Source of the DNA: Fragilaria crotonensis
Lineage: Eukaryota; Bacillariophyta; Fragilariophyceae; Fragilariales; Fragilariaceae
Direction: 5' to 3'
NCBI GenBank assembly: GCA_022925895.1
Contig: JAKSYS010000282.1
Span: 1-64,000, forward strand
DNA length: 64,000 nucleotides
The first letter of the stretch is position 1. Every line of letters starts with the position of its first letter. The notes beneath the pieces are model-generated. The model was not told the origin of the DNA. It ran no database searches and worked only from the letters and a program-made list of their open reading frames with translations. Positions 25,279-64,000 of this stretch are shown piece by piece. Position numbers and translations under genes: made by a program.

Positions 25279-26948
25279 TTACCATCCTTGGACCAGTTTG
25301 CGGACGCGTTCGAAACTCTCACGATTTAGTCCTTTCGTAAGAAAATCCGCCCACTGCTCCTGAGTGTCGACCTTCACGATGGCGACCGTGCCATCACGCA
25401 CGTGCTGCCAGAAGAAGTGCCACTTCACCTGGAAGTACTTCGTGCGGTTGGTGATGCGTTGGTTTACGGCGAGAAGAAGGCGCCATTGTTGTCTTCGAAG
25501 ACTTGACACTTGATCGTCGACGTGAACGTGCGAGGAAGTTTGATGCCGGAGGCGACTTCCTGGAGCATGGAACGGAGGGCAAGAGCGTACGCATCGCGGA
25601 GCTGAGAGCGGAGTATTCGGCTTCGAGCGTGGACAAGGAGATCTCACTTTGGAGGTGAGATTTCCACAAAATGGGACATCCTCCGAGCGTGATGATGTAC
25701 CCAGTTCGAGACTTCGCGGAGGTCGGAGAACGATCGGGATCGCGGCCATGAAGGCCTGCGAAGTCGGCGTCGACGTAACAGTCGAGATTCAAGGTGCCGG
25801 TGGGCTTGACAATCATGCCCATGTCGCTTGTGCGATGCAAATATCGAACGAGAGTTTTGACGGCGGACGCGTGGCTTCGTTTCGGACTGTGGCAAAACCT
25901 GGCGACCTGGCTGACGGCGAAAGCGATGTCGGGGCGAGTGTTTGTGGACAAATAAAGGAGCATGCCGACGATTGAACGGTAGCTCCACGTTTCCGTCATA
26001 GGAGGTCCGTCGGGGTCGATTCCAAGTGCGGCCTGAGCGGCTGGCGTCCAATTGTAATTGCTGTCGGACATGCCAGTTGCTTCCTTAATTTTCTGAATGA
26101 GACCCTTCTGAGTGAGAGTCAGGGTCCCATTCGTAGCGTCGCGAGTGAAATTGATGCCGAGGAAGTCGGTGAACGTGCCCTCGCGAGTAAAGTTAAACCT
26201 TTCGCTTCCAGTTGGCGAAGAGCTTGTCGAGGTCGTTTTGGTCGCGATAGGCAATACCTAAGTCATCAACGTATAGAACAACCATAATTGTATCTTTGTA
26301 GAGTAGACACGGGTCGTTAGCGCAGGCTTTAAAGCCTTCCTCGCGCAAGGCCTCCGACAAGTGCTGGTACCAAAGTCTTGGCGCCACACTCAAGCCATAA
26401 AGGCTTTTCAGGAGTCGCAGGCACGTGGCGTGGCCTCTCGGAGAGTGGAATCCACGTGGCAAATGGATCCAGACTGGATCCGAAAGCGGGGCTTGAACGA
26501 ACGCGCTGCTGAAGTCGATTGTGCAAGTTTTCCAGTTCAAAGTTAGAGAAAGAACTAGGAACAACCGTACAGTACTCCAAGCCACGACTGGGGCAAAAGT
26601 CTCCTGAACGTTTTCTTGGAGATCGCCTCTTACACAGTAGCGTGCCTTGTACTTACTGATAGTACCATCGGGAGTACGTTTGCGACGAAACACCCAAGTA
26701 CCGGGCAAAATTCGAGTCTTGGCTTCCGTGATCGGCACTTCGATCCATGTACCGTTTTTCTGCAAACTTTGAATTTCGTCGTTTGCAGCCTTCAGCCATT
26801 TTTCGATGTTGTCGCGATCCGCCATTGCTTCGGCGAAGCTCAGAGTGTCAGGATCGCTGACACTCGCCTTATACGACGAGGGAGGTGGCGAGACACTCGG
26901 CGACTTCATTGTACAGCCATTCGAGGGAGGTTCCATCGAATTCGGCAT
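25279..26948 (-). CDS. Copia-like reverse transcriptase and RNase H part of Pol
   Basis: RT begins around IEKWLKAANDEIQSLQKNGT and TWVFRRKRTPDGTISKYKAR, continues FAPVVAWSTVRLFLVLSL and TIDFSSAFVQAPLSDPVW, and has the catalytic YVDD near 26265-26276. After a frame change near 26200-26250 it continues GTFTDFLGINFTRD, then YRSIVGMLLYLSTNTRPDIA and FAVSQVARFCHSPKRSHA. RNase H follows: CYVDADFAGLHG with the first catalytic Asp, and SEISLSTLEAEYSALSSAM with the Glu. Another frame change near 25600-25560 leads to HVHVDDQVSSL... and the C-terminal VKVDTQEQWADFLTKGL ending at 25279. The order and motifs are those of Ty1/copia Pol. The broken frame means the copy as written could not make one polyprotein. 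Confidence 0.9.
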
Positions 26949-27406
26949 GTAACCATGTCCTTGTTGTCCGTCGTATCCGAGGCGGACAGGTGCCGGCGAT
27001 TGCGAGTGGAGCGACGAGGTTCGTGTTTAACGGGTGTGCTCTTTGCTTTTGTTGCTTTGGGACGACTGGTTGCTCGCTCACTTTGTTGTCGCTTTCGTTC
27101 GCAGGACGAATTGGAGTCGGCGACGATGGAAGAGTTTGACTGGAGTTGGAGTCGGAGTTGCGGCGCAGTCGGCGCAGGCGGTTGCGGAGTCGCCTCCTTG
27201 GAGTCAGCAACGGAGTGGCAGGGGAGGAGGCACAACGACTGGTGGTGGCGTCGCGATTTGCTCCCTTGGAGGCGGCAACGGAGTTGACAGCGGAGGCGGA
27301 GCGACTGGAAGAACCTGAGGAGGAGTCGCGTTGTCGAGAGCGGTTGCGACGCGTTGCATCTGGGAGAGGAGTTCGTTCGCTTGCTCGTAGTCGGTGGACT
27401 CAACAA

Positions 27407-30400
27407 TCAACCTTTCTTCGTCTTCGTCGTCGAGGACGTATTGAAACGTCGAGTCTTGGAACATTCGTTCCAGCAATCATCGTTGAAGTTCGGAAGGTCG
27501 TCGGCGGAAGCGGGAACGGTGGCGAACCAATCGTCGAAGACGATGTGAAACTGTGGGGTAATGTAACCCGTTTGTGGATTGAGAACGAGAGGGACCGAGC
27601 TGGCGTGTTTGTCGGAGAATCCGAGGTTGACGGTGCGAGTTGAGCGAGGAGTCCAACGTGGCAATTTCTTGCCGTCCGAAATCATTTTGTCGAGAACGTA
27701 GACTGGACATCCCCAAACGTGGACGTCCATCAATTTCTTTTGTTCCCAACGAGTCTTTGTGAAGACGTCGTGCGGGGACAGGCCAGTTCGTGGGTCAGGC
27801 ATGTGGTTCACTAGGAACACAGCATGCTTGACGGCGAGGGGCCAAAGTGTGGGATCGGCGACGTCCGGCCAATGGATGGCCGAATGCAACATCATGGTTC
27901 GTGCAATCGCCATGATGGTTCGGATGTTGCGTTCGGCGATCCCGTTGTGATGGTGAGCGCCGACGCCAGCGAATCGGATGACTTGCTGGAAGTCGGAAAG
28001 GTTGCGAGAGAACTCGGAGGACGTAAACGTTTTCGAGTTGTCGGCGAGATACTCTTGCGGCGTCACTCCTGTGTTGCGACACATTCGCTCGAAACTCTCT
28101 TTTGCCTTGAGCGTTTCGTGGAGTTCAAACTGACTTGATGCTCGACAAAAATAAACCCGGAGGCGTGGTCGACGAAGATGCAACCACCGGTATACATGTC
28201 GTCGAGTTTCGTTTTCCAGCGGAGGTAAGTAGACGTCCACGAGTGCTGCAAATAAAATGGTCGACGGAAATGCGTTGACCTGGGAGGAGATTGTCCGTTT
28301 TAAGAGCGTGCGCTCTATCTTTGACAACAGACGAAGGCGTCGTGCCAGGAATTGGACGTCGATGTTGTTTGCCATATTGGCAGGCGGCGCATTTTGGGAA
28401 CGAGGTAAGTCGACATGCGGCGGTTTGTAATCGGCGACTTTCTTCCGTTTTGCTGACGACGCCGGAACGCAGGATGAATTGAACCTTTTTGAAGCCGACG
28501 TGTCCCAAGCGATAATGCCAACGAAGCAATTCTTTCTCTGCTTCGTTAAGGTTGAGGTTCCTTTCGTGGACGGTGTTCACGATCGAAACGAGAGCGTCGG
28601 CGGCCTTGAAAGGATCGGTTGCGTTGTACGCTTCCGAAGTTGGTAAGTTGTTCTGCGGGTTGACGTTTGCCGTGACGGGTCCTCGATTGGCGTCGTTTGG
28701 AACGCCGCTGAGCGTCAGACGATTCGGTTCGATGGTGATCGTTTCGTCGGGATAAGTCTGGAGGAGACTTGACGTCGAGAGGAGGCGAACCTTGATGTTT
28801 GGAACATGAAACGCAGGGACTTTGAGGAGTCGCAAGTTGCCGAGTTGATCGTGGACGGCCCAGGTGACTTCGCCTTGGCCTTTAATCTGTAGACCTTTGG
28901 CGATTCCTTTGAGTTGCGTAATCGTTCCGGGCGACGTGACGGGGCCTTCGAAATCGGAGATGTCGGGAGTGATCGAAATGCTTGCGCCCGAGTCCCAAAT
29001 GATGGGGCTCGTGTTTGCCTTGGGTCCGAGGGCTTCTCGCATGCGAGCGGGAGCCTGAAGAGCCATGCGAAGCGGCGTAGAATGGCACGCCAGATGAACG
29101 TGCGAGAGGATCTTGTTGGCGGCGGCACGTTGGTGGAACGTGAGCGGAGCGATTGCGAACGGGTCGGGCGAGTTGGCGGGTGCCACAGGGCAATACTTCG
29201 CGGTTCGTGGCGACGAACGTGGGCGTTTGGAGCACCAGGAAGGACACGAACGCTTGGTTTTGGTGTATCCCTCTCCCTTTTGGCCTGTGGTAGGCGGCAA
29301 CGGAGCAGGGCGACGAGAATTGCGAAGCGTGTCGGCGCGACGTTGGAGACGGAGTGCGCGTTCTTTGAGAGTCGCGAAGTGACGAAAGTCGTCGCGCTCA
29401 GCAACCGTAGGAGGTCGCGAAGCGACATATCCCTGTTGTCGGAGACGGAGGGGGTACGAACGGTGTAGCTTGTTGACGCGAATGCCTGAATTGAAGCGTG
29501 GCGGAGCGAACGACTTCTTGAGGAGTCGCGAGAAGCGACGACGTTGAAGACGAGTGAGCGGAGGCGAGGAGGGAGCCGTCGAAGCAACGGGAGGTTGCTT
29601 TAGGAGCGTTGACGGGAAGACCGAGAGAAAGAGAAGGATGACCCAAACGGTAGGAGCGAACGCGAGCGTTGGGTGGCGAAGCACAACTTGGTGAAGATTG
29701 TTGGCGACCCAAGCCAAAATGGTCGTCCATGGGATGGCAGACGCAAGATAGATAACCAAAGTAACCAAATTAGGAACAATGGCACAGATAGCCAGGGAAA
29801 GAGCAAAAAGTAGCCATGGGTTCGCACCTCGGATGAGGTTTAAGAGCGAACGAGGAGGAGACGCGATGTTTGGTTTGACTGGAAAGTCAAGCAACCAAAC
29901 GGAGGGATCCGGCGCCAACATGCTGAGATTTGCCCTTGGCGACGGTGCCGGAGCAGGAGGACGACGTTCTCCACCGGTGTGAGTGGCGGTCGTGTGCGTG
30001 ACGGTCCAACGACGACACTTCTCGCACCAGTTGAAGGTTTTATCCTTCACTTTCTTGGAATTGCTAGTTCCGGGAAGTGGTGGAATTGTGCGCCAGGATT
30101 TATGTTTGTTGGTGCGATCCTGGCGGGACCCAGAGGAGGAGGACGATCCGGACTTACGATTGAGCTCCGGACACTTGTTCGCCCAATGACCGGGTTTTCC
30201 ACACTTGTGGCAATTGCCCTTCTTCGTTGGAGTTTCGGTCCCGGATGCCTGGGACTGAATCAACGTAAGTACCTCGGCTCGGGAGATACCTGCGGGGGCA
30301 GTTGCGACATTGCCAAACGTCGCAGACGGAGCTCGGACATCAGGTGCATGACTCGCTGGAGGCCATTCCTTTCTGTCAAATTGCGTACGGTACGCGTCTT

Positions 30401-30446
30401 CAGCTTGGCGACAAATATCTTGGAACGTCAATTTCTCGGCGACCAT
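27407..30446 (-). CDS. Gag zinc knuckle, protease and integrase of the copia-like element
   Basis: Minus-strand frame from 30446: a CCHC knuckle CHKCGKPGHWANKC, then a second Cys/His motif WCEKCRRWTVTHTTATH (about residues 140-156). A hydrophobic Pro-rich stretch of about 100 residues follows, unusual for Gag. The aspartic protease site is IIWDSGASISITPDISDFEG. The integrase zinc domain is WHYRLGHVGFKKV...CAACQYGK. The catalytic core continues after a frame change near 28130-28250: SVDHFICSTRG, FVDHASGFIFVEHQ, and GVGAHHHNGIAERNIRTIMA with the catalytic Glu. The integrase C-terminal part includes DVHVWGCPVYVLD, as in copia integrases. The frame ends at 27407 in a low-complexity acidic stretch before RT. 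Confidence 0.88.
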
Positions 30447-34187: not shown

Positions 34188-36127
34188 TCAAACATGGTAG
34201 CCAAGGTTATTCCGATCCCGCATGCGATGACGCCTCATATCATTTATAATTTGTGTGACAGGCTTGTCACGACCATACTGATAATACAGGTAGTCTATTG
34301 CTGATTGTGCCGTGTGTCCAGCACGAATCATGCTGGCAATCTGATCCCAAACAACTTTCCGACGATGGTATAAATATTTGCATCGTCCACGTTCTGCTGG
34401 TGTAAACAACCTAGCAGGCTTCCGACCTCCCAACCCAAACTCATACTCATGCCAGAGGATATGAAGATCACGAGGCGTTCGCGACAATGTAGCAGTTCTA
34501 TCCATACCACCAACATTATCCCTGTTCTGCTGCTCCTCCTCCACCACTGCTGCCCCTCCAGCATCAGGGCGCCGCACTCGAGCAGGTTGTATTCCAATTC
34601 GAGTAATGTTTGAATTCATTCGATGCATGAAATCCCTTGTAGAGTTGCGGAAAACCTCAAGACTATCTCGCAATTCCTGCACCTCACGACGCAGGGCCAC
34701 GTTCTGTGCATACAACGCTCGGAAGTGCTGTGCATTCACCATCCCACCACGAGTGCCACCAACAATATGGGTGCCATTTGCATCCTCCTCGCCCAACTCC
34801 TCCCCCACTATTTCATCAATATGCACTTGATTCTCATATCCAGTAACTACCAAAAGCACTCTATCGACCGGATTGACATCAGCCTCTAACACTCGGATAC
34901 CTGCATAGGCCTCACGAATACGAGTGCGAAGTTCAACTGGCATTGCTGACTCCATGCGAGCATCAAAGCATGCCCACAAAATTGGTCTCGCAAGAACAAG
35001 ACTTACACTCCTGTGGATCCTGCGGTGCTCCAAAAGAGAAGGAACAACATGCTCCCCCAGCCATTGATCAGTCACCCCGCTTCCCTCCTTCACGACATAC
35101 TTGCATGGCCCACCAACGCAAAGAATTGATGCAACCTTTGCATCAGGGTAGGGCAAGTTGACATCCATATAGACATCACTTACTCTCTTTCGCCTCCAAC
35201 GCCCACGGGCATCAACGTCATCTTTTGTACACCCATTTCGGCGTGCGTACGTTGCAGGAAACTTACGGAGACTGTGAGTACCAAGTGGACCCATGGCCTC
35301 CGGGACAAAGCCATCTGAATCCCAAAGCTTTCTCAAGACATTGTACATGAACTCCTTTGTCCTTTTAGGCTTGTCAGAAGACCCAAACAGAAAGTTATTT
35401 GTCGCTCCTAGGCCAGAATTACACCAAGTTTCAAGATAAATGCCAAGGGAAAGCAAAACGCAATACCTGATATCCATCGCACCCAGAATAATTTGGTCGG
35501 GAGCGTCACGTTCCTCTCGTACATTCTTTGACCAACACATCCTTGCTTGGAGGGCAAATGGGAACTGAGGGTGCGGTTTCAGGTCGGCTTCATCAAAATG
35601 GCTAGTATCATCAATCCGTGCCATCATGTGAAATTGAAATTTTGCCGCCGCTGGAACCAAGTACTTACGCCGGATGTCACTAAATCGTGACACCAGTGCA
35701 CTCATTGTATACTCAAACTCTCCAGGTTCAAGGGCGTCGTGCCGCTGACTCTTTTCAAGTTTCCTTACCTCTGCCTTTTCACTCGCTTGATCACATCATT
35801 TACAATAGCAGATCGAGTTGGATTTCCATCCTGGATCCTTTCGTTCCACGCCTCGGACTTGATGACTCTCACGTAGTAGGAAATTGCTTTCTTGTATTGC
35901 CCGAGGGAGTTTGCCCTTCCACAATGTGGTTGCATGTCTGGGGTAGGGTCTGCAGTTCCAAATGCCTTCAAACGCAGAAATCGTGCGACATCATTTGGCT
36001 TGACTTCTGCGAGCAAATCGATTCCAATCACCGAATTTGTGTCAAACATCGCGTCTGGGTGTAGAAATGCCATAAATTCAGACAAATAGGGATGATATTG
36101 TTTGTTGTATTCCACAAGATCAGTCAT
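34188..36127 (-). CDS. Crypton tyrosine recombinase, copy 1
   Basis: Start MTDLVEYNKQYHPYLSEFMA at 36127. The frame changes near 35770-35700, where copy 2 reads on without a break (homopolymers CTTTTCAC, TTCAAGGG), and then stays open to 34188. Counted from the methionine at 35705, catalytic residues of the integrase fold are R80 (MDIRYCVLL), H144 and R147 (THSLRKFPATYARRNG), W170 (GRWRRKR) and nucleophile Y179 (DVYMDV). The C-terminal domain ILWHEYEFGLGGRKPARLFT and RRKVVWDQIASMIRAGHTAQ matches GCR1_C, the DNA-binding domain typical of Crypton recombinases. About 645 residues if joined. The enzyme would excise and integrate the element by site-specific recombination. Confidence 0.85.
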
Positions 36128-36837: not shown

Positions 36838-38780
36838 TCAAACATGGTAGCCAAGGTTATTCCGATCCCGCATGCGATGACGCCTCATATCATTTATAAT
36901 TTGTGTGACAGGCTTGTCACGACCATACTGATAATACAGGTAGTCTATTGCTGATTGTGCCGTGTGTCCAGCACGAATCATGCTGGCAATCTGATCCCAA
37001 ACAACTTTCCGACGATGGTATAAATATTTGCATCGTCCACGTTCTGCTGGTGTAAACAACCTAGCAGGCTTCCGACCTCCCAACCCAAACTCATACTCAT
37101 GCCAGAGGATATGAAGATCACGAGGCGTTCGCGACAATGTAGCAGTTCTATCCATACCACCAACATTATCCCTGTTCTGCTGCTCCTCCTCCACCACTGC
37201 TGCCCCTCCAGCATCAGGGCGCCACACTCGAGCAGGTTGTATTCCAATTCGAGTAATGTTTGAATTCATTCGATGCATGAAATCCCTTGTAGAGTTGCGG
37301 AAAACCTCAAGACTATCTCGCAATTCCTGCACCTCACGACGCAGGGCCACGTTCTGTGCATACAACGCTCGGAAGTGCTGTGCATTCACCATCCCACCAC
37401 GAGTGCCACCAACAATATGGGTGCCATTTGCATCCTCCTCGCCCAACTCCTCCCCCACTATTTCATCAATATGCACTTGATTCTCATATCCAGTAACTAC
37501 CAAAAGCACTCTATCGACCGGATTGACATCAGCCTCTAACACTCGGATACCTGCATAGGCCTCACGAATACGAGTGCGAAGTTCAACTGGCATTGCTGAC
37601 TCCATGCGAGCATCAAAGCATGCCCACAAAATTGGTCTCGCAAGAACAAGACTTACACTCCTGTGGATCCTGCGGTGCTCCAAAAGAGAAGGAACAACAT
37701 GCTCCCCCAGCCATTGATCAGTCACCCCGCTTCCCTCCTTCACGACATACTTGCATGGCCCACCAACGCAAAGAATTGATGCAACCTTTGCATCAGGGTA
37801 GGGCAAGTTGACATCCATATAGACATCACTTACTCTCTTTCGCCTCCAACGCCCACGGGCATCAACGTCATCTTTGTACACCCATTTCGGCGTGCATACG
37901 TTGCAGGAAACTTACGGAGACTGTGAGTACCAAGTGGACCCATGGCCTCCGGGACAAAGCCATCTGAATCCCAAAGCTTTCTCAAGACATTGTACATGAA
38001 CTCCTTTGTCCTTTTAGGCTTGTCAGAAGACCCAAACAGAAAGTTATTTGTCGCTCCTAGGCCAGAATTACACCAAGTTTCAAGATAAATGCCAAGGGAA
38101 AGCAAAACGCAATACCTGATATCCATCGCACCCAGAATAATTTGGTCGGGAGCGTCACGTTCCTCTCGTACATTCTTTGACCAACACATCCTTGCTTGGA
38201 GGGCAAATGGGAACTGAGGGTGCGGTTTCAGGTCGGCTTCATCAAAATGGCTAGTATCATCAATCCGTGCCATCATGTGAAATTGAAATTTTGCCGCCGC
38301 TGGAACCAAGTACTTACGCCGGATGTCACTAAATCGTGACACCAGTGCACTCATTGTATACTCAAACTCTCCAGGTTCCAAGGGGCGTCGTGCCGCTGAC
38401 TCTTTTCCAAGTTTCCTTACCTCTGCCTTTTTCACTCGCTTGATCACATCATTTACAATAGCAGATCGAGTTGGATTTCCATCCTGGATCCTTTCGTTCC
38501 ACGCCTCGGACTTGATGACTCTCACGTAGTAGGAAATTGCTTTCTTGTATTGCCCGAGGGAGTTTGCCCTTCCACAATGTGGTTGCATGTCTGGGGTAGG
38601 GTCTGCAGTTCCAAATGCCTTCAAACGCAGAAATCGTGCGACATCATTTGGCTTGACTTCTGCGAGCAAATCGATTCCAATCACCGAATTTGTGTCAAAC
38701 ATCGCATCTGGGTGTAGAAATGCCATAAATTCAGACAAATAGGGATGATATTGTTTGTTGTATTCCACAAGATCAGTCAT
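36838..38780 (-). CDS. Crypton tyrosine recombinase, copy 2
   Basis: Near-identical to copy 1. The N-terminal half is intact here from MTDLVEYNKQ (38780) through THSLRKFPATYARRNGCTK, but a 1-nt shorter T run at about 37872-37875 (CATCTTTGTAC versus CATCTTTTGTAC) breaks the frame before the catalytic W/Y segment, which continues in the next frame (DDVDARGRWRRKRVSDVYMD) to 36838. The few base differences from copy 1 include one giving RVW in place of RVR. The two copies are thus each broken at different homopolymers. Confidence 0.85.
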
Positions 38781-45069: not shown

Positions 45070-46815
45070 CTAAATTTCCGTACCTGTCAAATAGGTAGAA
45101 GAGGCATGGGTCGGTCTTGCATTGAAAAGCCCGAGTGACTTCAGAATTTTCGAAAATGACTCCATCGGTGCGACACCCGTCTCCAACGTTGCAGCACCAG
45201 TAACGACCATAGTAATAGGAATGTCCTCCGCGATCGAAACATGTCCTGGCACATCCAATGGTACATTGTCATCTGGTAGGTCCTTCAACTTGATTGCGTC
45301 ATCTCCCAATGCTGCAAATTTTCCACTATTTCCGATAGTGACTTCACGATTCGAATCCGTCGAATTCGTTGTATGCTTGTTGTCGTATGCGACACCACCA
45401 TTGGCGCCGCTATCATTAAATAGCATTTCCTCCGCAAGTCCCAGCGTAACTGCTGATCCGACAAAAGCGCTTGGTATGACAATGACATTATCATATTCGT
45501 CCGTAGTTTCATTCGTAGCCATGATAGGGGTGTTCATGTCAGTTGCAAGAACGTCCAAGTCACATTTGGATTCCTGTTCTTCAACCAACTCAACCTCAAT
45601 GGCAGATGGTTCGGTCTCCGCCGCAATGTCCTCAATGCGTGCAGTTTTAGTATCGTTCTTAGTACGGCCTCCACTGCCACAGGCCGGGATCAAATGACCA
45701 AACAAAGTGTCTTCATGCTCGCCAAAAGCCACTGAATCGGACATGTTGTCGAAGAAGCTGTCTCCCACATCCGCACAATAGTCATAGCCCTTGTAGACGG
45801 GCATAGTACCCACGCATGACGCTCCGACAAACATTGCCATATCAGCTGTAGGGTCAGACTTGAAGTTCTTTGCGCTCGCACACTCGTTCGCATAATGCCC
45901 CTTCCCTTGACAATTATAGCATGTCACATTTGACTTATCGACGTCGTCGACAGTACTGGCTTCCTTCGTGGGACCCTCCGTAGATTCGACCTTGGCCGAC
46001 CTGCACTCATGTGCCTTATGGCCAATCTTGCCGCAATTCCTGCATGTTCCCTTAAATGTGTTGCTGGAGCTGAGTACCGATTCCGAGCCCCTTCCACAAC
46101 CATCCTTGACAAGGGTCTTGAATTGGAGTACCACTTCCTTTCGCAATTTCGCAAGAGGCGTATCGCTTAGGTCTCCACGGAACTTGACGATGACGCTGTC
46201 ATAGTCCTTCGACATAGCTGTCATTATGTGACTCTTCATTTGCAGATCGTCCTTCTCATACTTCAAGTTGATCCTTGCGAGCCTCATATTCAAGTGGTCC
46301 AAGTCATTGAACCAGAGTTCTGGGTCCTTCTTCGTCCCAACAAGCTTGCAATCGCTAAATGCCTGATCCAGCTCGGGGTAATTCTCTTCCGCGTCCGTTG
46401 CACAGTATTTCTCTTGTAGTATAGACCATGCCTTGTACGGATCCCCTCCGCACCGTTCAATAAGTGCATAGGCCTTGTCGGTGCAACTCGCGACCAAATA
46501 TGTCCACGCTGCTGCCTTTGCCAGGTACTTCCGGTTCTCTGCCGTTGTCGTCGGACGCATGACTGCAGCGGCAGCCGTGCCGCCCGTAGTAGCCGCCATC
46601 GCTGGCGTGACTTCGACCTCTCCATACTCGAACTGTTCAACCGTTAGTGCCGTTCCGGTACTCTCTCTGGTTAGTGCGAGCAAAAATCCTTTCGAGCTGG
46701 CGAGCGCAAGTGTCTTACCCTCCCATGAGCGGTATCTAGCTTCGTCGCCGTCGAACGCAAATGCGCGGACCGTAGTTCCAAACCCTGTCCCGGATTCAGC
46801 CGTTTCGTCCACCAT
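45070..46815 (-). CDS. Gag-protease of the short LTR element
   Basis: Intact, 581 residues, starting MVDETAESGTGFGTTVRAFA about 35 nt inside the 5' LTR. Residues about 10-220 are the copia Gag capsid-like (UBN2-type) domain: KAAAWTYLVASCTDKAYALI, DPYKAWSILQEKY, DPELWFNDLDHLNMRLARIN and KSHIMTAMSKDYDSVIVKFR. Two zinc knuckles follow, CRNCGKIGHKAHEC and CYNCQGKGHYANEC. Further on, LFNDSGANGGVAY...VTIGNSGKFAALGDDAIKLK fits a retropepsin-like D-S-G-A site. The frame ends with THASSTYLTGTEI. Unlike the larger element, the frame has no breaks, consistent with selection or recent spread. Confidence 0.88.
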   Translation of the reverse strand: MVDETAESGTGFGTTVRAFAFDGDEARYRSWEGKTLALASSKGFLLALTRESTGTALTVEQFEYGEVEVTPAMAATTGGTAAAAVMRPTTTAENRKYLAKAAAWTYLVASCTDKAYALIERCGGDPYKAWSILQEKYCATDAEENYPELDQAFSDCKLVGTKKDPELWFNDLDHLNMRLARINLKYEKDDLQMKSHIMTAMSKDYDSVIVKFRGDLSDTPLAKLRKEVVLQFKTLVKDGCGRGSESVLSSSNTFKGTCRNCGKIGHKAHECRSAKVESTEGPTKEASTVDDVDKSNVTCYNCQGKGHYANECASAKNFKSDPTADMAMFVGASCVGTMPVYKGYDYCADVGDSFFDNMSDSVAFGEHEDTLFGHLIPACGSGGRTKNDTKTARIEDIAAETEPSAIEVELVEEQESKCDLDVLATDMNTPIMATNETTDEYDNVIVIPSAFVGSAVTLGLAEEMLFNDSGANGGVAYDNKHTTNSTDSNREVTIGNSGKFAALGDDAIKLKDLPDDNVPLDVPGHVSIAEDIPITMVVTGAATLETGVAPMESFSKILKSLGLFNARPTHASSTYLTGTEI

Positions 46816-59801: not shown

Positions 59802-60344
59802 TGATAGTGCTGCGTGCTGCGAGTAGATGGGCTCAAATGAAGGTATGAGGCAGTAATGAATTATTAGGTAACGTATATTCATATTCGCACTGGAGATTCA
59901 GTTGCTCTCGCGGCAAATGGCGAGTGCCCAGTGCCAAGTGCGTGTATTCACTATGCACAGTGCACCGTACAAGTACTCAGGCCTCAGGCCTCAGGACAGT
60001 GCTCTACAGTCCTACGTCGTACGAGGTACTCAGTACTCAAGCATGTCATACAGTATGCAAACGATGTATGTGCTCGGAGTTGTATGCATACGATTGCATC
60101 ATACCAGCTGTACAGTTATATGCATATAGTCATGTAGACCTTTTTCACATCGCATTCATTCATTTTTTTACCTGAGAATCCATCTAGACTAAACTGAAAC
60201 ACAACCCTGCAACGGTTTTTCCAACCGTCACATTTTGGACCGGCGATAAAGGCATTCTGCATATGCATACATACCACTTGAAGAAACAACGGCCCATCAA
60301 CATAGAGCTTCTCTCTATGCGTATTCGATCCCTGCGTCGCCGCC
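59802..60344. other. Intergenic, upstream of the Trp-Arg repeat gene
   Basis: No gene. AGGCCTCAGGCCTCAGG direct repeat at about 59980-59996 and repeated GTACT/TATGCATA palindromes at 60005-60130 and 60258-60270. Confidence 0.4.
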
Positions 60345-63300
60345 ATGATCGCGTCCAGTCACATTGACGAGGAGGAGGACTCAATGAAAGATGAAGACTT
60401 CCTCTTTCACGCCAACGACGCCGAGAATGCTCTCGATGCGCTGAACAAGTTAAAGGACTTCATAGAAAAACTTGATGCAGACGCTGAACGCGTTCAGCAA
60501 GAGATCGCAAATGCAATAAAAGACTACAACAATGATTCGGACGATGACAGCGATGTAAGCGCACTTGATTTGTATGGCATCACAACAAACTTTCTGGTCG
60601 CACTTCAAGACAAGGAGAACGAAGGCATGGGAAATCCTTCGCTGCAGCAAAACACAGGAGTTTACCAGGACGCGATCCTATCACCCTTGACGCCTGCTAT
60701 TGTGTCAAAGACGCCATCTCACCGTCGTACACCATTAGCTTCTAGAGAGCAAGGTGGAAACATATCAGGTACCAGAAGGAGCCGGTTTTCGTTCAACTTC
60801 GAGCCCAGCCCCACATTGGTAACAACGCCTGCAACGACATTCCGGTATAAGCATATTTCTCTTAAAGGCGACTCTCGTCCGGATAAAAGTCTCGATCATC
60901 CGGAAATTCAGAAGGATCATCAGCTCAGTCCGAGTAGTATCAGGGTCGAATCTCCTGTCAAAGCAAATGACCCATACGAATGGGCATACGCCGTCTGGAG
61001 GGCACACGGATTAATGGGAAGGACTAGCGAGACACCCTATCGCAAGCTCGAGATCGATGTGACCGATTCTACTCCGATATCGTCGTTTCAAGTGGCAGAT
61101 ACCTCGGAATGGGATCTCTCGCCACTAGCCGCTTTTTTGCTCGACAAACGAAAGAGCAGTGCTACCAAGGGCGCGGACCGAGCCAAAGAATTCGCGAGGG
61201 AATCGACTGGGAACTTTCAAAATGTCCTTTCCACCTGGAGGAAGGGACACATGGAGGACACACCTTCTAGGACTCACGCCCCAGACTTTGCACGCCTACG
61301 AAAGCCTGACGAATTTCAAGAATTGTTGCGGAAGTGGAGAGAGGCGAGACAGGAACAGGCAGCAAGTGGCCAACAACGAGCTATGACTTACGCCTCCGAA
61401 GCCAAAACTAATCTTCAAGGCATATTGAAGATCTGGCATGATTCGCAAGCAGCCGAGTTTGAGCATTGGGCTCAAGCGCATGCAAGATCTGCGGACGAGT
61501 TTCAGGAATTATTGTCGAAGTGGAGAGAGGCAAGAGTGGATAAACGACCTGGAGATGCTGAAAGTGAACGCAAAGAGTCACTCGGCAGCATTGACGAGGT
61601 TATGGAACAATGGCGAGAGTCACATCAGACCGAGTTCGAAGACTGGGCACGCGAGCAATCGCATACATCCGACGAGTTTCAGGAGTTGCTGCGGCACTGG
61701 CGTGAAGCCTTGCCTGGCTATGAATCATCGACTCGAGACGAGCAGGATGTTATGCTGAAAGGAGCGATATCAACTTCTGGTCATGCTCTTCGAGAGGTAC
61801 ACAGCTCCCAAGACTTGGAATCAAGTACAAGCAGGAAATCGAAGAAGTTCTGGCATGATTCAAAAGAACAGGAAGTTCTGGAATCATCCACACCTCGTGT
61901 CAGTTCTCCTATCGAGTTTCAAGAACACGTGAAAACTAGCAAGGAGGAGTCGCGTGATAAGATTATTTGCACTGAAAAACTTTCAGGTATCGCGATTGAA
62001 AAATTTGATCGCCTCCTATCGAGATGGCGCGTGGCGGAAGCTAGTTCGTTTCACGAATGGGCTCGACAGCAATCATGTTGTCAATCGGAGTTCCAATCCC
62101 TTCTTCGAAAGTGGCGTGACGGAAACCCCTACGTCGGGCAAAGGAGAGAAGTGTTGCCGCCATCATCTGCATGCGAAAGCTTTGAAAGCGCTTTGGCAAT
62201 GTGGCGTCAATCTGAAACGTACGATTTTGAGGAATGGGCTAAAATGAATTCTGCTTCCTCCGATGCGTTCGATTTTCTTGTCCAACAATGGAAAGCAGCG
62301 GGAAAAGAGACGTGCGGTAAACAGGAGGACAATCGTGTTGTCAATCGGGATTTTGACATTTTGCTTTCGCAATGGCGTGCTGCAGAAGGTCCGAAGTTCC
62401 GCAAGTGGGCACGTCAAAATACTTGTTCCAGCGAAGATTTTCATACGCTATTGAAAAAGTGGCGTGATATCAGCTCAGTCATGGCGTCTGATCAGCAGAC
62501 AACCAGTGGTCGGGGTCTGTCAGACGGAACAAATGAAAAAATCGCACAGATTAGGGCTCTATGGAATGCGTCGGAAGCGTACAGCGTCGAAGATTGGGTT
62601 CAACAGCACGTATCGTCAAAGTCAGCTTTTCAGCACCTCACGAAGCAGTTTGGACACAAACATGAGGAGCAGAGTTCTGATGTAGAATTCGATGGTACCG
62701 CGTCGCGATGGCGGTCATGTATACTAAACAACTCGGGTTTCCACATGCAAACGAGTATGAGGTGCCCGTTCCAATCTCACTCAATGACTGAATGTGGCTG
62801 TGGGTATTACTTTTCGTCAAAGGGATTGAGAGCCCTAGATCTTGCTCACCTTCAGAGATCATACGGAAACTCACAGCATGTCTTGGTCGAGGGAACTCAA
62901 GAGAGAAAGCACGTTCGTTTTGCGAAGTTTACCCCCGTTCACAAAGAAGGCTCAGTAATACACATACACTCTCTCAGACTCGAAGCCCTTGATCTTGCAG
63001 TGATGCCATTATCGCTTGAATGTCTCCACAAAATCAAAACGGCAGTGCATACAAATATTATCGATGGTCAAGATAAAGAGGCTAGGCTTCGGCAGAGATC
63101 AGCAATGCAGCAGGTATTGCGTCGATGGCGTGAGGATGGACCTGATTTCGCTCGTCACAACTCTGGCAAAAATCCGAATGTGGAGATGCAGTTCCAGGCG
63201 CATCAGACCCGAAATACCCCGGAGGCTGAATCGCTTTCGACACATAGACCTTGCATCCTTGTCGATATTGAAACCGTTAGCGAAAGGGAAGAATCTGACT

Positions 63301-64000
63301 GCCAAACCCAGTTGACAAACGAGGAGAACAAACAAGACAGTGGAATCTTCGCCCAGACATGGACAACACCGAATCCAAGTGTGCATACAGGGAAGCAACG
63401 AGCCGAGGAATTTGCTCGCGATTCAAGTGGTAACTTCATGCAGCTCGTTTCAAATTGGCGGGAACCCCAAAGCACTCCACGTTGTGGCAATTCCGACGGA
63501 AAGAAACGTGCTCAAGAGTGTTCGAGACACTCGACAGGGAAATTCAGCCATCTAATTTCAACGTGGAAGTCTCGTCCTTCTAATCTTGAAGGCTCTCACA
63601 GCGACATCGGAATCGGCGTGTGCAAGAGCACTACCAGGAATACGAAAGAGCGCCAACTAGTAGACGATTGCGGCTTGAACCTCGTCAATGACGAACTAGA
63701 ACCCGTCGATGCGACCCTAGGCGAAAGCAGCGCTGTGTCTATTCACCGTTTTGCCGGATCATGCTTGAATCCTGCTGATACAATGAGCGAGAACGCCCTG
63801 ACGACCAACAATGAAAACCATGCAGGCGGCGATTGTGATCAAGCCGCGTTGTACCCATCTCGTCAAGAGGAGGCTACGTATCCCGAAAACGACGATGAGC
63901 TCCTCACTTATTGGAAGTCCAAAGTGAATCGCTATGAAGATGACCTCGAACAACGATGGGACAATGGAGAAAGCCCGTACATCAGCGAGCGTTCCGTTGC
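60345..64000 (+). CDS. Very large Trp-Arg-rich repeat protein, family unknown (runs off the window)
   Basis: An unbroken frame of 1,218 codons from the ATG at 60345-60347 (context gccgccATGa) to the window end. Residues 1-60 are acidic with a likely coiled coil (NALDALNKLKDFIEKLDADA). Residues about 110-155 are Ser/Thr-Pro-rich (LSPLTPAIVSKTPSHRRTPL), like proline-directed kinase sites. Residues about 320-775 hold eight units of a roughly 58-residue repeat with F-x2-L-L-x-K-W-R-E (DEFQELLRKWREAR at 322, also 384, 443, 524 degenerate, 582, 641, 698, 761 degenerate), each preceded by W-x-E/S...F-x2-W-A (FEHWAQ, FEDWAR, FHEWAR, FEEWAK, FRKWAR). A second motif, RAKEFARESTGNF...STWR, appears at 279, 1019 and 1055. 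No catalytic motif or membrane span seen. Possibly a structural or cytoskeletal protein. Confidence 0.85.
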   Translation, partial: MIASSHIDEEEDSMKDEDFLFHANDAENALDALNKLKDFIEKLDADAERVQQEIANAIKDYNNDSDDDSDVSALDLYGITTNFLVALQDKENEGMGNPSLQQNTGVYQDAILSPLTPAIVSKTPSHRRTPLASREQGGNISGTRRSRFSFNFEPSPTLVTTPATTFRYKHISLKGDSRPDKSLDHPEIQKDHQLSPSSIRVESPVKANDPYEWAYAVWRAHGLMGRTSETPYRKLEIDVTDSTPISSFQVADTSEWDLSPLAAFLLDKRKSSATKGADRAKEFARESTGNFQNVLSTWRKGHMEDTPSRTHAPDFARLRKPDEFQELLRKWREARQEQAASGQQRAMTYASEAKTNLQGILKIWHDSQAAEFEHWAQAHARSADEFQELLSKWREARVDKRPGDAESERKESLGSIDEVMEQWRESHQTEFEDWAREQSHTSDEFQELLRHWREALPGYESSTRDEQDVMLKGAISTSGHALREVHSSQDLESSTSRKSKKFWHDSKEQEVLESSTPRVSSPIEFQEHVKTSKEESRDKIICTEKLSGIAIEKFDRLLSRWRVAEASSFHEWARQQSCCQSEFQSLLRKWRDGNPYVGQRREVLPPSSACESFESALAMWRQSETYDFEEWAKMNSASSDAFDFLVQQWKAAGKETCGKQEDNRVVNRDFDILLSQWRAAEGPKFRKWARQNTCSSEDFHTLLKKWRDISSVMASDQQTTSGRGLSDGTNEKIAQIRALWNASEAYSVEDWVQQHVSSKSAFQHLTKQFGHKHEEQSSDVEFDGTASRWRSCILNNSGFHMQTSMRCPFQSHSMTECGCGYYFSSKGLRALDLAHLQRSYGNSQHVLVEGTQERKHVRFAKFTPVHKEGSVIHIHSLRLEALDLAVMPLSLECLHKIKTAVHTNIIDGQDKEARLRQRSAMQQVLRRWREDGPDFARHNSGKNPNVEMQFQAHQTRNTPEAESLSTHRPCILVDIETVSEREESDCQTQLTNEENKQDSGIFAQTWTTPNPSVHTGKQRAEEFARDSSGNFMQLVSNWREPQSTPRCGNSDGKKRAQECSRHSTGKFSHLISTWKSRPSNLEGSHSDIGIGVCKSTTRNTKERQLVDDCGLNLVNDELEPVDATLGESSAVSIHRFAGSCLNPADTMSENALTTNNENHAGGDCDQAALYPSRQEEATYPENDDELLTYWKSKVNRYEDDLEQRWDNGESPYISERSV

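Follow-up and report, generated by a model that had tools for sequence, protein, structure and literature searches.

A Diatom Gene Encodes a Long Array of Trp-Arg Units

The stretch of Fragilaria crotonensis DNA analyzed here, the first 64,000 nucleotides of contig JAKSYS010000282.1 (hereafter the window), ends inside a gene for a large protein that combines an array of Trp-Arg (W-R) units with a C-terminal domain related to the tails of diatom kinesins. The frame opens with the ATG at 60345, the first start codon after an upstream in-frame stop ending at 60305, and runs unbroken for 1,218 codons to the window end at 64000, as the preliminary description of this locus had it. The contig (C205; 72,266 bases) carries the frame further, to a stop codon at 65355-65357, for a total of 1,670 residues; that the gene lacks introns is judged solely from this open frame. 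The protein begins with an acidic N terminus (Asp plus Glu, 32% in residues 1-75 versus 16% overall). Pfam profile searches gave no match in it at an expectation value (E) of 1 or below to the kinesin motor (PF00225), the spectrin repeat (PF00435), or Sfi1 (PF08457).

An iterated profile defines a basic repeat unit of ~29 residues with the core F-x2-L-L-x2-W-R, of which the protein contains 18. The best score among 117 shuffled control sequences (three for each of 39 proteins) was 3.4 bits, and matches were kept at 4.4 bits or more. The strict motif F-x2-[LIVM]-[LIVMTS]-x2-W-[RK] occurs 11 times, against a mean of 0.010 and a maximum of 1 in 2,000 shuffles. Across the five repeat-rich proteins of this family, namely the window protein and its relatives P0002-P0005, 27 of the 57 unit spacings of 45 residues or less are exactly 29 residues, and the commonest spacings are 29-33 residues. 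Ten of the 18 units pair into five larger modules of ~45 residues, each with Trp at 0, +11, and +29 (tri-Trp modules; the +29 position was tolerated ±1 residue in counting), where 500 shuffles gave a mean of 0.05 and a maximum of 2. P0002-P0005 contain 5, 6, 5, and 8 such modules. The features of the gene and its neighbor are as follows.

60345..64000, plus strand: open frame of the repeat protein, residues 1-1218 of 1,670, the remainder on the contig past the window
60969..61022, plus strand: WAY box, residues 209-226, DPYEWAYAVWRAHGLMGR
61173..61259, plus strand: W-R unit (W298), flavor ADRAKEFARESTGNFQNVLSTWRKG, strongly conserved in the five repeat-rich proteins
61272..61358, plus strand: W-R unit (W331)
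61410..61544, plus strand: tri-Trp module 1 (W364, W375, W393)
61587..61721, plus strand: tri-Trp module 2 (W423, W434, W452)
62001..62135, plus strand: tri-Trp module 3 (W561, W572, W590)
62178..62312, plus strand: tri-Trp module 4 (W620, W631, W649)
62349..62483, plus strand: tri-Trp module 5 (W677, W688, W706)
62538..62672, plus strand: degenerate module (W740, W751; F769 instead of the third Trp)
63063..63149, plus strand: W-R unit (W928)
63393..63479, plus strand: W-R unit (W1038), KQRAEEFARDSSGNF flavor
63501..63587, plus strand: W-R unit (W1074), KQRAEEFARDSSGNF flavor as in the W1038 unit
Contig 64830-65246, plus strand: C-terminal domain, residues 1496-1634, past the window end
Contig 66539-69972, minus strand: neighboring kinesin gene, convergent with the repeat gene, past the window end

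Neighboring tri-Trp modules are spaced 59, 59, and 57 residues apart, with wider gaps elsewhere in the array. It is this 57- to 59-residue spacing that the preliminary description had taken for a repeat unit of ~58 residues; the actual unit is 29 (29 + 29). The regular W-R repeat described there is real, and six of the eight sites listed carry W-R (F324/W331, F386/W393, F445/W452, F583/W590, F642/W649, and F699/W706), but at the remaining two, near residues 524 and 761 (F525 and F762), S532 and F769 replace the Trp. At the places aligned to S532/F769 a Trp is kept in P0004 (EFQELLQKW) and P0003 (FQHILKLW). In the degenerate module, the profile scores the second half only (residues 749-765, 5.3 bits). 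The array extends C terminally through W928, W1038, and W1074 and, past the window end, W1371 and W1412. The stretch that precedes the W-R helix is of RAxEFA or FxxWA flavor, and a second flavor of unit, GKxRAxEFARxSxGNF, is absent from the earlier account. That account had assigned the repeat to no named family, and sequence searches of Pfam, NCBIfam, and PDB likewise returned no match to it.

The W-R Helix Is Probably a Discrete Amphipathic Helix

Conservation among the five repeat-rich proteins was analyzed at 18 Trp sites, namely W740 and those of the 17 profile units that contain a Trp. Identity of the window protein to the other four peaks at positions −18, −7, −4, −3, and 0 relative to the Trp (means of 0.81, 0.79, 0.79, 0.74, and 0.94, respectively). 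Within residues 270-1419, positions −7, −4, −3, 0, and +1 are invariant in all five proteins in 41 of 90 cases, versus 133 of 1,060 other positions, and the Trp itself is invariant at 14 of the 18 sites. In 97 units, Pro or Gly was found just 7 times from −8 to +2, with peaks of 38 at −10/−9 and 76 at +3 to +6, and the segment from −9 to +5 is amphipathic (mean hydrophobic moment 0.384 versus a maximum of 0.302 in 200 shuffles). Given this Pro/Gly distribution and the amphipathic segment, each W-R helix is likely to be a separate helix ~12-14 residues long. At the level of sequence, a conserved and probably helical Trp-Arg repeat is upheld. In addition, the fixed 0/+11/+29 spacing and the flanking helix breakers favor a folded, Trp-cored module.

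The preliminary description had proposed a helical solenoid or a spectrin-like rod; such a structure would be rigid and act as a spacer. An AlphaFold model of residues 267-720, built from the five sequences, does place helices at the W-R positions, but the model is poor, and a continuous solenoid would be hypothetical. Spectrin repeats are also helical, with a conserved Trp, and their unit is ~106 residues. The unit of the repeat protein is 29 residues and its module ~45, the observed periods are 29 and 57-59, the spectrin profile found no match at the cutoff given above, and fold matches bearing on the spectrin three-helix fold lay within noise. We regard the solenoid or rod as improbable, and its spectrin-like form is not supported.

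The C-Terminal Domain Is Shared with Diatom Kinesins

Past the view of the preliminary description lies what is the strongest clue to function, a C-terminal domain of ~140 residues with homology to the end of the tail in a family of diatom kinesins. It contains four cysteines arranged as CxC and CxC (C1498, C1500, C1523, and C1525), which may form a zinc site, followed by the motifs L-R-x-W-Q, A-M-x-x-W-R, and T-x-x-C...I-W. Three helices after the Cys pairs are confidently modeled (block mean predicted local distance difference test [pLDDT] of 90-97, residues 71-160 of a 201-residue model). Pfam, NCBIfam, and PDB contain no named family matching the domain, and fold searches with its model returned no trustworthy match. 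The neighboring gene, which lies ~1.2 kb beyond the repeat-gene stop, encodes a kinesin (PF00225, E 1.6e-78), the C-terminal piece of which carries the same domain, 47% identical to that of the repeat protein.

As a search query, the kinesin C-terminal domain found 21 proteins including the query (20 kinesin-type proteins and the non-kinesin P0026), and the domain of the window protein found 18 (17 non-kinesins and one kinesin). A whole-length search with the window protein gave five relatives, the repeat-rich P0002-P0005 and a kinesin, P0006, covering 7% of the query. Two relatives are named as Amphora coffeaeformis and Nitzschia sp., and the kinesin P0012 is from Chaetoceros sp. GSL56. The resulting alignment over the domain has 39 rows, 20 kinesin-type (P0006-P0025) and 19 non-kinesins, window protein included. 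The domain aligns in 39 of 39 rows, including all 19 members of the non-kinesin family, in a set selected mostly by that domain (14 of the 19 non-kinesins were found by it). The CxC cysteines are conserved in at least 90% of the rows, P0014 being without them. The Pfam motor is present in 19 of the 20 kinesin-type rows; the exception, P0015, looks like a fragment that starts after the motor. The diatom kinesins share with the repeat protein a homologous domain bearing the same Cys pairs and motifs, but the repeat protein has no motor and instead carries W-R units, which the profile finds in none of the 20 kinesins.

The extreme C terminus has the appearance of a conserved peptide signal. Each of the 20 kinesins terminates in E-[IV], 19 of them in E-x-E-[IV], and among the 19 non-kinesins 12 terminate in E-[IV] and 6 in E-x-E-[IV]. 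The kinesin of this locus ends in FLEL, unlike the E-[IV] kinesins.

The Array Probably Grew in One Diatom Lineage

The non-kinesin family is marked by the WAY box, at least one F-type W-[RK] site, and the C-terminal domain, and the window protein has all three. The WAY box form occurs in 11 of the 14 low-repeat relatives (P0026-P0039), P0030 by the looser alternative of the pattern only. Repeat content divides the family. P0002-P0005, whose identity to the window protein in a single alignment is 78, 61, 49, and 38%, contain 19, 23, 21, and 31 units by profile. In the 14 low-repeat proteins the profile gives one unit in 6 and none in 8, and a looser pattern finds one W-R motif in 13. Neither these 14 proteins nor the 20 kinesins contain a tri-Trp module.

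In a tree of the domain, the kinesins fall on one side of a branch with support of 100/99 (99/94 when the kinesin of this locus is added), and the five repeat-rich proteins are grouped (99/97) inside the non-kinesin side. P0027 and P0028 adjoin the repeat-rich group (95/87 and 99/86), and their single unit, RDRAG..G.FGNLIQ.WK, resembles the first unit of the window protein. Because four close relatives have 19-31 units and 14 distant ones about one, a single ancestral W-R site probably expanded into the array within one diatom lineage. A family with about one repeat in some members and 18-31 in others would allow one to study, as in a natural experiment, why scaffolds acquire repeats.

The units might instead derive by divergence from the W-R helix that the C-terminal domain itself contains (RSAGILAKAMKKWRKK), in which case the array would present one domain-domain contact, such as one to the kinesin tail, in many weak versions. 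When the domain and unit profiles are aligned, W-R is set on W-R with a probability of 41%, compared with 0.4% for the reversed domain. However, 1 of 60 column-shuffled domains scored equally well, so this alignment is suggestive only, and the W-R site and the C-terminal domain already occur together in most low-repeat relatives. An origin from the domain seems to us improbable.

A Second Copy of the Gene

A second copy of the gene and its kinesin neighbor lies on another contig (C190, 6653-11650, minus strand). The two copies are 98.1% identical in DNA across an alignment of 8,043 columns that extends into the kinesin. The C190 copy carries eight frame-changing indels, six of which are single-base deletions. 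It may represent a duplicate in decay or else an allele in which sequencing or assembly introduced errors. Between the copies, non-synonymous relative to synonymous change varies along the gene, with a ratio of 0.357 overall (48 changes), 0.19 in residues 1-735, and 0.525 in residues 277-713.

A separate 364-bp piece of the repeat gene (residues ~1197-1318, 86-90% identical) is found inside a segment present at four places that are 98-99.7% identical to one another (C302:1-7000, C592:102000-109500, C481:6000-13000, and C210:24000-31500). The segment also holds a ~107-bp direct repeat and, by eye, pieces of other genes, which we take to be those of a Prp16-like helicase and a KH-domain protein. 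It is a recently spread mosaic of gene fragments.

Comparison with Sfi1 and Related Centrin-Binding Proteins

The W-R array invites comparison with Sfi1. In a convergent counterpart of Sfi1, each W-R helix would dock an EF-hand protein, centrin-like or calmodulin-like, with the 8-4-1 orientation reversed, so that the array would build a row of EF-hand proteins on a diatom microtubule-organizing structure. Published work on Sfi1 describes the 8-4-1 orientation (PMC8622359) and a consensus of AX7LLX3F/LX2WK/R (PMC9406199). Here, the reversed triad (hydrophobic at −7, hydrophobic at −3, Trp at 0, K/R at +1) occurs 15 times in the repeat protein, against a mean of 0.24 and a maximum of 3 in 300 shuffles, and the minimal motif [FLW]xxW[KR] occurs 11 times (shuffle mean 0.57, maximum 3). 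Among 60 six-frame open stretches of at least 150 codons in the window, the next best has one. The commonest unit spacings come near the ~33 residues given for a Sfi1 site (PMC8622359). There is also a precedent in Plasmodium: the minimal motif is reported to be more frequent in PfSlp than in any other Plasmodium falciparum protein, and PfSlp, which came from a centrin co-immunoprecipitation, has no sequence homology to Sfi1 according to its authors (PMC10180636). Sfi1 and Sfi1-like proteins, including PfSlp and TgSFI1, resemble the repeat protein in having many Trp-anchored amphipathic sites, the 8-4-1 triad, K/R after the Trp, and a spacing of ~30 residues.

There are also differences. The W-R helices look discrete and capped, being bounded by Pro/Gly at −10/−9 and +3 to +6, whereas Sfi1 sites lie on one long helix (PMC9406199). 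Relative to the Sfi1 consensus, positions −3, 0, and +1 fit, but Phe prevails over the consensus Leu at −7, Asn, Glu, and Asp predominate at −8, and the consensus Ala at −16 is out of place, the commonest residue there being Glu and Ala being commonest at −17/−18. With its conserved second Trp at +11, the rigid 0/+11/+29 arrangement has the look of a folded core, and the Sfi1 profile, as reported above, found no match at E ≤ 1. Nor is the triad specific, since 19 of the 20 kinesins also contain one, located by us in the C-terminal domain. Although repeat-rich, P0004 has just 5 minimal motifs compared with a shuffle maximum of 4.

A centrin query gave 11 matches in the F. crotonensis genome, the best ones calmodulin-like, and no canonical centrin was found, though an exon-split or unassembled one could escape this search. 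A divergent centrin-like protein is encoded at C501:4404-4820; its top PDB match by E is a calmodulin fusion, and its best full-length matches are caltractin and centrin-2. At C545:22887-23306, calmodulins are the top matches, and the C-terminal half appears centrin-like by eye. That this query brought up only divergent centrin-like and calmodulin-like proteins is perhaps a consequence of centriole loss. Weighing both sides, we consider docking of EF-hand proteins along the array rather unlikely.

A Possible Kinesin-Linked Scaffold

The reading that we prefer, while giving it slightly less than an even chance, is that the repeat protein is a diatom non-motor, multivalent scaffold of the microtubule system, linked to kinesin. 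That the C-terminal domain is common to diatom kinesin tails suggests a cytoskeletal scaffold. In such a mechanism, this domain would bring the protein to the structure or partner used by the tail of its sister kinesin. The W-R helices, in a first version, would fold into small Trp-cored modules, and these modules could serve as repeated small binding surfaces that collect many copies of a partner or tie the protein to itself; in a second version, the helices would dock EF-hand proteins in the way of Sfi1. W-R copy number might then set the length or the valency of the scaffold. A bolder form joins these elements: in one diatom lineage, a single W-R helix would have grown into a large multivalent scaffold, combining an undescribed tri-Trp module with a kinesin-tail domain, as a convergent counterpart of the centrin-Sfi1 system at an acentriolar microtubule-organizing structure. 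We think this form unlikely.

Several points weigh against the kinesin-linked scaffold. Homology of one domain to a kinesin tail is no proof of a microtubule location for either protein, and the adjacency of the repeat gene and the kinesin is known from this genome only, in two copies of one duplicated block. The AlphaFold model of the array has low confidence (mean pLDDT 51.6, predicted template modeling score 0.26), so the folded tri-Trp module rests on the sequence pattern. The domain tree is unrooted and the tree tool warned of long branches (P0025), which makes growth from one unit to many the simplest reading only. The indels on C190 mean that one copy, or its assembly, is damaged, and between the two copies the non-synonymous to synonymous ratio is about 2 in residues 736-1480.

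Tandem-repeat scaffolds are a known kind of protein; the tri-Trp module and its combination with a kinesin-tail domain look new. In open-access literature on diatom kinesin, centrin, and Sfi1, represented by titles and the starts of abstracts, and by passages for a few papers, no such protein was found. A survey covering the kinesins of photosynthetic eukaryotes counted 25 in one diatom and left four of these unresolved (PMC1434745). A family defined by a kinesin-tail domain would provide a handle on how diatoms organize microtubules.

Other Observations in the Genome

The 62.1-Mb assembly contains 19 silicon transporter family matches, 18 of them over the cutoff (best E 4e-193), in keeping with a diatom genome. 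Three silicon transporter domains lie in one 1,456-residue open frame at C97:29749-33762 and two in one 1,008-residue open frame at C771:21664-24330, and both frames are predicted to encode fused multidomain silicon transporters.

Within the window, two near-identical gene copies are located at 34188-35705 and 36838-38780 on the minus strand, the second split over two frames. For the gene at 34188-35705, the profile search gave a weak match to GCR1_C (E 3e-4), one that falls short of the curated cutoff, and the gene resembles Crypton-type recombinases. The intervals 25394-30446 and 45070-46815 hold Copia-like retrotransposon pieces on the minus strand and a separate zinc-knuckle gag-like frame; in the Copia-like pieces, the gag pre-integrase and zinc knuckle were recognized by profile and the reverse transcriptase by eye.

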